Assembly (NCBI RefSeq): GCF_021049285.1
Contig: NZ_CP088017.1
Span: 2,367,380-2,431,379 of the forward strand
Length of the DNA stretch: 64,000 nucleotides
Reading direction: 5' to 3'
From: Ruania halotolerans
GTDB taxonomy: Bacteria > Actinomycetota > Actinomycetes > Actinomycetales > Beutenbergiaceae
Below, one piece after another: positions 55,876-59,089 of this stretch (positions within the stretch are counted from its first letter, which is position 1; every line of letters begins with the position of its first letter). A program made the translations under genes and the position numbers. The notes beneath the pieces were generated by a model that ran no database searches, was not told the DNA's origin, and was given only the letters and a program-made list of their open reading frames with translations.

Positions 55876-58374
55876 TCAGGCGGGGACGATGTTGACCAGC
55901 TTCGGTGCACGCACGATGACGGTGCGCACCCCGGCGCCGTCCAGCGCACGCTGCACCCCTGGTGCGGCCAATGCCAAAGCCTCCAGCTCGCCGTCGGAGA
56001 TCGACGGGGAGACCTCCAGGCGATCGCGCACCTTGCCCTTGACCTGCACCACGCAGGTGACGGTGTCTTCCACCAGCAGCGCCTCGTCCACCTCCGGCCA
56101 GGACGTGCGCGCGATCGTGGGTTCGTGGCCCAATCGCTCCCACATCTCCTCGGCGGTGTACGGCGCCACCAGGGAGAGCAGGATCGCGACCGTCTCAGTC
56201 GCCTCCCGCACGGCCGGGTCGGTCCCGCCGCAACCAGTGTCGATGGCCTTGCGGGTGGCGTTCACCAGTTCCATCGTGCGGGCGACCACCACGTTGAATC
56301 GGTGCGACTCCATCAGCCCGGTGACCTCGTGCACGGTCTTGTGGGTCACCTTACGAAGGCCGGCATCGCCCTCGACGGGATCGCTGCCGACGGCGGAGGT
56401 CACGTCTCCGGCCAGGCGCCAGGCCCGCTGCAGGAACCGCAGCGAACCAGCCGGGGACATGTCCGCCCAGTCGATGTCGTCCTCGGGCGGGCCGGCGAAC
56501 ACCAGCGTCAGGCGGACGGCATCCACCCCGAACTCGTCCAGTTGCTCGCCCAGGTTCACACCGTTGCCCAGGGACTTGCTCATCTTCTTTCCCTGGTTGA
56601 TCACCACACCCTGGTTCAGCTGCGCGGCGAACGGCTCACGCACGTTCAGCAGACCCATATCGGCGAGCACCTTGGTGAAGAACCGCGCATACAGCAGGTG
56701 CAGCACCGCGTGCTCCACGCCGCCGACGTAGATGTCGGCCGGCATCCAGGCCTTGGCCAGCTCCGGATCGAACGCCTGGGTGTCCTCGTTCGGGGAGGTG
56801 TACCGCAGGAAGTACCAGGAGGAGTCCACGAAGGTGTCCATCGTGTCCGTGTCCCGCGTCGCCGGAGCGTTGCACTCCGGGCATGGCACATTGACCCACT
56901 CGGTGGCCGTGGCAAGCGGGGAGACGCCCTTGGGCTTGAGATCGGCACCGCGCATATCCGGCAGCGTTACCGGCAACTGGTCTTCGGGTACCGGCACCGC
57001 CCCGCAGGTCTCACAGTGGATGATCGGGATCGGGCAGCCCCAGTAGCGCTGCCTGCTCAGCAGCCAATCGCGCAGCCGGAAGTTCACCGCACCGGTGCCC
57101 GTACCAGCCGCCTCCAGCCGCTCCACGATCCGGCTGATCCCGGTGGCCTTCTCGGTCAGGCCATCCAGGTCGCCGGAGTTGACGTAGGTGCCGTCGCCGG
57201 TGGTCGCGATCCCGGAGTCCTCCGGGTTGTCCGCACCGGTGTCGATCACCCGGCGCACCGGTAGCCCCATGGCCCGGGCGAAGTCCAGGTCGCGCTGGTC
57301 ATGCGCGGGCACTGCCATGATCGCGCCGGTGCCGTAGTCGGCCAGCACGTAGTCCGAAGCCCACACCGGCACCTGTTCACCGTTGACCGGGTTGGTGGCG
57401 GTGACCCCCAGGTCGATACCAGTCTTCGGGCGCTCGGTGGACATCCGGTCGATATCGGAGGCCTTGCGCGTCTGCGCCAGATACTCCTCCTGCGCTGCGC
57501 GCCGGTCCGGGGCCACGAGCTCTGCTGCCAGCGCTGCATCGGCGGCCACCACCATGAACGTGGCGCCGTACAGGGTGTCCGGCCGGGTGGTGTACACCGT
57601 GACAGTTCGATCGGTTCCGTCCGCCAGGCGCACGGCGAAGTCCACGTGGGCACCCTCGGAGCGGCCGATCCAGTTCCGCTGCGCGGTCACCACCCGGTCC
57701 GGCCAGGTGGGCGCCAGCGTATCCAGATCGTCGAGAAGCTCCTGGGCATACTCAGTGATCTTGAAGTACCACTGGTTCAGCTCACGTTTGGTCACCTCGG
57801 CGCCGCACCGTTCGCACGCCCCGTCGATCACCTGCTCGTTGGCCAGCACCGTCTGATCATTCGGGCACCAGTTCACCGGGGAGTACTTCTGATACGCCAG
57901 ACCACGCTCGCGCAGCTGCAGGAACAGCCACTGAGTCCAGCGGTAGTACTCCGGATCGGAGGTGTGCAGCCGGCGCGACCAGTCAAAGCTGATCCCGAAC
58001 TTCTTGAACGAGGCAGCCTGGGTCTCGATGTTGGCGTAGGTGTAGGTGGCCGGATGCTCGCCACTGCGGATCGCGGCGTTCTCCGCCGGTAGTCCGAAGG
58101 AGTCCCACCCCATCGGGTTCATCACCTCGAACCCACGCAGCCACCAGTACCGTGCCATCACGTCATGCAGCGCCGTGACCTCGGCGTGCCCCATGTGCAG
58201 ATCGCCCGAGGGGTAGGGAAACATGGTGAGCGCGTACTTCTTCGCACGCTCCCCGGCGAGCACGGCAGCGTTATCGGCACGGAAGGGCTCGAGTTCCTCC
58301 CACACCGGCAGCCATTTGGCCTCCATCGCATGGGCGTCGTAACCGGCGGGTTCGGTGCTGCGTGTCTCGCTCAT
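55876..58374 (-). CDS. leuS: Leucyl-tRNA synthetase
   Basis: Class Ia synthetase of 832 residues, the usual bacterial length. HIGH-type motif [16 protein letters not shown] (about 52-67), editing (CP1) domain with [14 protein letters not shown] (about 265), and KMSKS in [13 protein letters not shown] (about 600); the anticodon-binding and C-terminal domains are complete. ATG at 58374 with GAGAGATGAG upstream. The 115 nt before it contain a leucine-rich leader peptide and a canonical intrinsic terminator, so expression is probably controlled by leucine-dependent attenuation. Confidence 0.97.
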
Positions 58375-58408: not shown

Positions 58409-58433
58409 AAAAAAGCCCCTCTCGCAGAGGGGC
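58409..58433 (-). terminator. Intrinsic terminator in the leuS leader (attenuator)
   Basis: GCCCCTCT, loop GCG, AGAGGGGC followed by six T on the minus strand. It is the clearest rho-independent terminator in the window and lies between the leader peptide and leuS, where it would end transcription before the gene unless prevented. Confidence 0.9.
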
Positions 58434-58434
58434 A

Positions 58435-58462
58435 GCCGCGGCGGTGACGTTACCGTCGCGGC
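58435..58462 (-). promoter_or_regulatory. Leader stem upstream of the leuS terminator
   Basis: GCCGCGACGGT (58462-58452) can pair with ACCGCCGCGGC (58445-58435), 11 bp with one mismatch. The leader stop codon TAA (58452-58450) overlaps the start of its loop. The stem lies directly beside the terminator; how leader translation switches the structure is not clear by eye. Confidence 0.55.
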
Positions 58463-58488
58463 CCGGTAAGGAGCAGGATCTGATGCAT
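58450..58488 (-). CDS. leuS leader peptide (leucine attenuation)
   Basis: A 12-residue frame, MHQILLLTGPRR, with consecutive Leu codons CTG CTC CTT and a TAA stop. TACCAT (58500-58495) lies 6 nt before the ATG, the distance expected for a leaderless start. Followed by the 11-bp stem and the intrinsic terminator described separately. The combination of leaderless Leu-rich peptide, terminator and leuS strongly suggests ribosome-mediated attenuation. Confidence 0.72.
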   Translation of the reverse strand: MHQILLLTGPRR

Positions 58489-58636
58489 GCACTCATGGTA
58501 GCGCCCTCTGGTCACTGTCCTCCGCTGGCGAACGCGCCGCACTCACCGCGCGGGTCCGGACTCGCCCACTTAGCATGAGAATCACAGGGGACATCGACCC
58601 GGCGCCGCCTCCATGCGGCCGGACGAAAGGACGAAT

Positions 58637-59089
58637 GTGACGACGCAGCACTCAGCACCCGAGGCCGTGACGACCCGCCTCCAGGCCGCTCTCGTGGACC
58701 TGATCGACCTGGCGTTGCAGGGCAAGCAGGCGCACTGGAATCTGCAGGGACCGCACTTCCGTTCGCTCCACCTCCAGCTCGACGAAGTGATCGCCGACCT
58801 GCGCGGCTGGTCCGACGACGTCGCCGAACGTCTCGCAACATTGGGCACCACACCGGACGGGCGGGCTGCCACAGTTGCTGGCGAGTCTCAGGTTCCTGAC
58901 CTCGACGGCGGCCCGGTCGGGACGGACAAGCTCATCCGCCTGTTCGACGATCGGCTGCAGGGCGCCAGCGACCGGATCAAGGACGGGCTCGAGGCGCTCG
59001 AGGTGGACTTGCTGAGCCAGGACCTTCTCATCGAGGTGGCCACGGGGCTGGAGAAGCACGCCTGGATGTTCCGCTCCGCGGAAGCCTGA
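58637..59089 (+). CDS. dps: Dps-family DNA-binding ferritin-like protein
   Basis: A 150-residue Dps/ferritin-like protein that oxidises and stores iron, protecting DNA during starvation or oxidative stress. The inter-subunit ferroxidase residues are visible in KQAHWNLQGPHFRSLHLQLDEV and WSDDVAERLATLG. A GTG start with AAGGA 7 nt upstream; the alternative in-frame ATG at 58613 lacks a ribosome site. The 262 nt before it hold the leuS attenuator and a weak TAGCAT -10; I see no clear IdeR or OxyR box. Confidence 0.92.
   Translation: MTTQHSAPEAVTTRLQAALVDLIDLALQGKQAHWNLQGPHFRSLHLQLDEVIADLRGWSDDVAERLATLGTTPDGRAATVAGESQVPDLDGGPVGTDKLIRLFDDRLQGASDRIKDGLEALEVDLLSQDLLIEVATGLEKHAWMFRSAEA

Follow-up and report, generated by a model that had tools for sequence, protein, structure and literature searches.

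Reading along the minus strand of a 64,000-nucleotide stretch of Ruania halotolerans DNA (contig NZ_CP088017.1; ‘the window’ in what follows, meaning the whole stretch that was analysed), we see that the gene for leucyl-tRNA synthetase, leuS, is preceded by a short open reading frame rich in leucine codons and by two hairpins set side by side, the first a GC-rich stem and the second an intrinsic terminator. In the order in which a transcript would run, the features are as follows:

58495..58500, minus strand: -10-like hexamer TACCAT, 6 nt 5' of the leader ATG (sequence)
58450..58488, minus strand: leader peptide frame MHQILLLTGPRR, leaderless-looking, 12 codons and a stop codon (sequence, parser)
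58468..58476, minus strand: regulatory Leu codons CTG CTC CTT, the last being a rare codon (parser and codon counts)
58452..58463, minus strand: stem 1, 5' arm GGCCGCGACGGT (stem search, folding; the helix covaries)
58434..58445, minus strand: stem 1, 3' arm ACCGCCGCGGCT, abutting the terminator (stem search, folding; the helix covaries)
58415..58433, minus strand: intrinsic terminator hairpin, 8 pairs, loop of 3 (terminator scan, folding; the helix covaries)
58409..58414, minus strand: T-run of the terminator, 6 T (terminator scan)
55876..58374, minus strand: leuS, leucyl-tRNA synthetase of the short type, 832 aa (TIGR00396 match)

The element begins, at the leader ATG, 114 nt 5' of leuS, the product of which (832 aa) scores 932.5 bits against TIGR00396 leuS_bact, for a cut-off of 548.4. 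From 58488 the leader reads ATG CAT CAG ATC CTG CTC CTT ACC GGG CCG CGA CGG TAA, and the window terminator scan gives the terminator as GCCCCTCT-GCG-AGAGGGGC followed by TTTTTTGTG. A preliminary description of the locus had placed a Leu-codon frame and both hairpins ahead of the gene; sequence, terminator scan and relatives all bear this out, coordinates included. It had also started the stem at the leader stop codon, which is not the case: the 5' arm of stem 1 lies within the leader frame, running from 4 nt past the last Leu codon to the first base of the stop codon. Taken from 58486 to 58405, the RNA folds 2.96 standard deviations better than its dinucleotide shuffles, with 1 of 200 equally good.

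The spacing of the -10-like hexamer predicts that the start codon is also the first codon of the transcript. A consensus scan of the window returned 0 promoter-like sites, missing the leader's own as well, and so says little. An Rfam scan of the window found no family at gathering score, on which ground a T-box or another known RNA family was rejected. Upstream of the leader lies a divergent gene (58613-59089, plus strand), which by eye we take to be Dps/ferritin-like.

To place the element in a wider context, sequences upstream of leuS were assembled from 30 loci of relatives (L026-L030 carrying the long LeuS type) and 80 loci of named genera (Nocardioides, Arthrobacter, Kribbella, Kocuria, Actinomadura, Planobispora and others), and searched with a parser that needs TANNNT 5-8 nt before an ATG or GTG, a short frame, and farther downstream a hairpin followed by a T-run. 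The same arrangement is present before leuS in 87 of the 110 loci, which are not independent, L008 and L063 being one locus and some rows being identical. The start codon is ATG in 68 and GTG in 19 of the 87, and lies 6 nt from the -10 hexamer in 77 and 7 nt in 10; since the hexamer itself is present by construction of the parser, the preference for a spacing of 6 is the only genuine result here.

Among the 23 loci missed by the parser, L025 and L081 offer too little upstream sequence; in L014, L017, L023, L024, L044 and L047 a leader is visible by eye, in some with a poor terminator; and the remainder (L008, L012, L016, L022, L026-L028, L063, L069, L073, L082, L083, L085, L094 and L110), three Kocuria records among them (L069, L073 and L083), seem by eye to be empty or to have lost the element. 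At the Actinotalea caeni locus (L063 = L008), the short leuS directly follows a frame that by eye ends like a LeuS C-terminus, and another LeuS-like match, in the same orientation, lies some 2.4 kb upstream. This locus probably holds two leuS genes in tandem, with no leader found before the second. Five Arthrobacter or Glutamicibacter records (L066, L079, L080, L093 and L097) combine a short stem with one or two Leu codons, the rare CTA among them; in L097 there is practically no stem.

Within the 87 leaders, leucine fills the last three codon positions in 231 of 261 cases when read in frame (87 of these being the last Leu, hence by construction), versus 61 and 3 of 261 in the two other frames; 63 leaders have three Leu codons at these positions, 18 have two and 6 have one. 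The last Leu codon is CTT in 73, CTC in 7, CTA in 5 and CTG in 2, so that CTT or CTA occupies it in 78/87. Across the leuS genes of 80 loci (L031-L110), CTT makes up 2.2% and CTA 0.4% of 5268 Leu codons, 2.6% together. The first two Leu positions vary synonymously among leaders. This choice of rare codons suggests to us the sensing of particular tRNA-Leu isoacceptors. Stem 1 begins 5 nt past the last Leu codon in 63/87 loci, and the first base of the stop codon has two main places, 2 nt before the start of the stem (38 loci) or 7 nt after it (22 loci); both these start positions and the stem 1 loop lengths, which span 3 to 50 nt among loci, come from a search confined to the vicinity of the Leu codons and the terminator.

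For covariation, we used an alignment of 84 rows, 82 of them distinct, from which L076, L086 and L097 had been excluded beforehand and in which rows L066, L079, L080 and L093 align badly. Counting stem 1 and the terminator together, double changes occur at 14 of 16 pairs, and 93.0% of paired cells can pair versus 85.3% in shuffles, 0 of 500 shuffles being as good; as a control, sliding the columns by 1-3 positions lowers the figure to 41.4-59.1%. The comparison of relatives proposed in the preliminary description thus comes out in its favour, the Leu-codon frame being kept in 87/110 loci and both helices covarying.

The spacing between the two hairpins is tight. With the stem search run over the whole stretch and the closing A-U pair of the terminator counted, the linker measures 1 nt in 52 loci, 0 in 19, 2 in 6 and 3 in 2; that is, 0-1 nt in 71/87, with an overlap of 1-3 nt in 8/87 and no shared base in 79/87. 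Among 25 further leuS elements of the class, the linker is 0-1 nt in 20 and 4 nt in 1, with no terminator call in the other 4 (L161, L166, L179 and L180). Three of the eight overlaps (L102, L104 and L106) arise through another stem that begins in the Leu codons. The earlier suggestion of a stem extended into the terminator was rejected for the window, where the best stem reaches right up to the terminator and leaves no base free for an extension.

How a translating ribosome would act on these hairpins was modelled with a partition function, placing it on the first Leu codon, on the last Leu codon or on the stop codon, with assumed footprints of 9, 11 and 13 nt and with the trp leader of Escherichia coli, at 13 nt, as positive control; the coverage geometry assumes that the ribosome protects 11 nt past the first base of the A site. 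With the 11-nt footprint, a ribosome on the first Leu leaves the 5' arm of stem 1 less than 50% covered in 86/87 loci, and coverage of at least 50% is reached in 1/87 from the first Leu, 29/87 from the last Leu and 84/87 from the stop codon. When the terminator 3' arm is absent, stem 1 forms (P > 0.5) at this footprint in 78/87 loci for a ribosome on the first Leu, in 4 for one on the last Leu and in 0 for one at the stop. The outcome for a ribosome on the last Leu depends on the footprint, since stem 1 then forms in 71, 4 and 3 of 87 loci at 9, 11 and 13 nt.

The same calculations speak to the antiterminator, about which the preliminary description had been doubtful; the doubt was justified. 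The terminator 5' arm is held by upstream RNA (P > 0.5) in 2, 2 and 1 of 87 loci for a ribosome on the first Leu and in 25, 17 and 15 for one at the stop (9, 11 and 13 nt), and in 3/87 for one on the last Leu (11 nt). Sequestration of this arm is accordingly commoner at the stop than on the first Leu, the reverse of a classical switch. For the window itself the values at 13 nt are 0.0004 (first Leu) and 0.27 (last Leu), whereas the trp control gives 0.71 with the ribosome on Trp versus 0.01 at the stop, such that the known switch is recovered. An antiterminator pairing with the terminator's 5' arm was thus not found in the window and is rare among the 87 loci; since at most 2/87 exceed 0.5 when the first Leu is occupied, compared with 0.71 for the trp control, we reject a classical overlapping antiterminator. 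Once finished, the terminator is stable in every modelled state (mean P 0.96-0.99; below 0.5 in at most 2/87). As modelled, then, the position of the ribosome controls stem 1, yet stem 1 is no competitor for the bases of the terminator. It follows that, should starvation raise leuS as it does at other attenuators, stem 1 must obstruct its neighbouring terminator by some means other than base competition.

We believe that leader, hairpin and terminator together probably turn leuS up when leucine-charged tRNA runs short. The reading we favour, and hold to be likely, is that of a ribosome-mediated transcription attenuator of leuS which responds to charged tRNA-Leu, and chiefly to the isoacceptor or isoacceptors reading CTT and CTA, and in which a stalled ribosome allows stem 1 to form and polymerase to read through. 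A leaderless transcript would begin at the leader ATG. With Leu-tRNA sufficient, the ribosome would reach the stop codon and mask the 5' arm of stem 1, whereupon the terminator would form and leuS would be off. With Leu-tRNA scarce, the ribosome would wait on the Leu codons, stem 1 would form ahead of it and polymerase would read into leuS; that a waiting ribosome raises leuS is itself something we infer. At the most speculative step, a stable stem lying 0-1 nt from the 5' base of the terminator would not fit the RNA exit channel, and the terminator stem could then not close at its base.

On the side of such an attenuator we count features directly observed here—the parts and their conservation, the covariation of both helices, the codon bias and the presence before both LeuS types—together with the coverage geometry and the switching of stem 1, as computed from assumed footprints, and the mapped leaderless start of LeuL2 in Streptomyces lividans (PMC8079986). 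Counted against it are the lack of a base-pairing antiterminator, the stability of the finished terminator throughout, the footprint-dependent result on the last Leu, and the 6/87 leaders with a single Leu in the last three codons; also counted against it is that the relevant passages of PMC1262725, PMC8079986, PMC11857589 and PMC8355165 contain no leucine-response experiment on leuS. The proposal that abutment hinders the terminator is further weakened by tandem hairpins after gyrA of Mycobacterium smegmatis, which, according to the passage describing them (PMC8355165), terminate better than a single one, the opposite effect.

That precedent is one reason for keeping a rival in which the wiring is reversed, the other being that the last-Leu outcome depends on the footprint. 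Here stem 1 and the terminator would act as a tandem terminator: a stall on the last, rare Leu codon would block stem 1 and give read-through, and a ribosome leaving the stop codon quickly would permit both hairpins and termination. It is the last Leu codon that is most biased, and it sits 5 nt before the stem in 63/87 loci; a ribosome on it prevents stem 1 at 11 and 13 nt, where the stem forms in 4 and 3 of 87, and the described M. smegmatis gyrA pair does outperform a single hairpin (PMC8355165). Set against this, the terminator is stable alone (mean P 0.96-0.99), which makes a helper stem look unnecessary, stem 1 still forms in 71/87 at 9 nt, and the 5' arm is also covered once the ribosome has come to the stop codon (84/87). 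We think this reversed arrangement improbable. Both it and the rival taken up next share with the favoured reading the claim of an attenuator, and the confidences that we attach to the three are not exclusive.

Slightly less probable still is a ‘fast’ attenuator of the Corynebacterium glutamicum ilvBNC type, in which an adjacent antiterminator and terminator compete for a few boundary bases only. A trinucleotide GCC shared by two hairpins has been tested by mutation in ilvBNC, as the part of that study dealing with it reports (PMC11857589), and the best leuS stem overlaps the terminator by 1-3 nt in 8/87 loci; in the window, judged by eye, GGG before CCGCG could pair into the GCCCC of the terminator in another register. 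Yet 79/87 best stems, the window's among them, share no base with the terminator, many elements have by eye TAG, CAG or GAG before CCGC and hence no complement to a terminator base, and sequestration exceeds 0.5 in at most 2/87 with the ribosome on the first Leu. The last alternative is that a small leaderless gene, ending in a terminator of its own, stands before leuS by chance, and that leuS is transcribed from another start (for which a consensus scan with no promoter anywhere leaves room between terminator and gene). We regard this as very improbable, given that the Leu codons, fixed spacings and covarying stem persist across many named genera and accompany both LeuS types, dissimilar as these are.

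Placed among known systems, the favoured attenuator reading has direct precedent. The preliminary description had pointed out the attenuator layout here for a tRNA synthetase; this is not new, for leuS attenuators are already in print for Streptomyces, having been predicted in 2005 for S. coelicolor and S. avermitilis in an account that, in the part bearing on them, calls an antiterminator (PMC1262725). For S. lividans TK24, the section of a 2021 RNA-seq study concerned with LeuL2 MRAVRLLLSEPR gives a leaderless frame, then a hairpin and uridines before leuS (PMC8079986), and the likeness to the window extends to a leaderless 12-residue frame, three Leu codons, and a hairpin with a uridine stretch. 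Five of our loci from one genus (L138, L142, L163, L164 and L168; genomes of 6.4-9.9 Mb) have exactly MRAVRLLLSEPR, with stem 1, terminator and a 0-1 nt linker; these precede the long LeuS type, whereas the window represents another genus and the short type. The window element belongs to the leuL2-type actinobacterial leuS leader-peptide attenuators, a kind already described.

With ilvBNC of C. glutamicum, as portrayed in the pertinent part of PMC11857589, the leuS element has in common that transcript and leader begin at the same point or next to it, and that the hairpins stand side by side; it differs in that a GCC trinucleotide is common to both ilvBNC hairpins, whereas 79/87 leuS elements share none. 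The abutting design is, on that portrayal, close to the shared-boundary model of ilvBNC yet distinct from it. With trp of E. coli it shares codons for the sensed amino acid, a stop near the switching stem and an intrinsic terminator, and the cognate codons, as at trp, stand in a leader predicted from its sequence to be translated; at trp, however, the stalled ribosome leads to sequestration of the terminator 5' arm (0.71 versus 0.01), which in the leuS elements it does not. The LEU element before actinobacterial leuA likewise has a Leu-codon leader peptide, but the 2005 account gives it no typical terminator and proposes that a pseudoknot forms and that the Leu codons pair with the Shine-Dalgarno box (PMC1262725); the leuA leader is also leaderless in S. 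lividans, in the corresponding section of PMC8079986.

A covariance model built from the element has matches at an E-value of 0.001 in 113 of 246 class genomes (128 matches) and, in a sample of the phylum, in 21 of 198 genomes, 12 within the class and 9 outside it. The window's own site scores 76 bits in a 4.27-Mb genome, in part by construction, as it is one of the model's 84 rows. Its genome holds a sole other match at E up to 1, outside the window (L113; G000:C1:1481119-1481235, plus strand; 22.5 bits, E 0.056): a leader MFTQTIVVVLTGRAPAAV with IVVVL, a similar layout and, by eye, an ilvB-like gene downstream. We opened 70 of the 128 class matches (30 fetched and 40 chosen, weak second matches included), which with L113 makes 71 loci. 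LeuS lies downstream in 51 of these, from 50 genomes, 26 with a LeuS closer to the long type and 25 with one closer to the short type; genome G261 has both types, as dissimilar genes, and each of the two is preceded by a separate Leu leader, stem and terminator (L129 and L151).

Of the other 20 opened loci, one (L167) is cut by a contig end and 19 have a similar layout with other codons; their linker is -1 to 2 nt long in 16 cases and 3-4 nt in the remaining 3 (closing A-U of the terminator counted). Ile-codon leaders precede citramalate-synthase-like genes in 8 of the 19 (L146, L147, L150, L152, L153, L157, L162 and L181), an identification that for L157 rests on TIGR00977 (478.5 bits, cut-off 450) and for the other seven was made by eye; at L143, Ile codons stand before a small protein that has no NCBIfam match. 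MTHWMIII and VQSALIIT are examples of Ile-codon leaders, each with an abutting GC stem and terminator. To judge by their codons and position, the leaders before citramalate-synthase-like genes make up an apparent isoleucine attenuator; no description of such a version before citramalate synthase was found in open-licence papers. Leaders with Ile, Val and Leu codons precede an ilvB-like gene in 9 of the 19, L113 included, that of L148 being so assigned by the best NCBIfam matches of a cut fragment, below cut-offs, and the others by eye. The last, L160, has the leader VPLFLMVIT and a similar layout, and the frame downstream looks by eye like what we presume to be a threonine dehydratase.

These loci lead us to a broader proposal, which we put forward tentatively and with clearly less confidence than the attenuator itself: that this is a distinct, modular actinobacterial design in which the switching hairpin abuts the terminator and control may be steric, exerted within the RNA exit channel, in place of competition for base pairs. 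The common chassis would consist of a leaderless leader, a stop near the foot of the stem, a GC stem, a linker and a terminator, and would come in codon versions: Leu for leuS, Ile for citramalate synthase, and Ile/Val/Leu for ilvB.

As to what the element means for the family, a prediction made for two Streptomyces species gains covariation support over many genera, and the element is found before two dissimilar LeuS types. It raises the testable question of an attenuator that works without base competition between its two hairpins, and the Ile-codon version before citramalate synthase would carry the design to another pathway.
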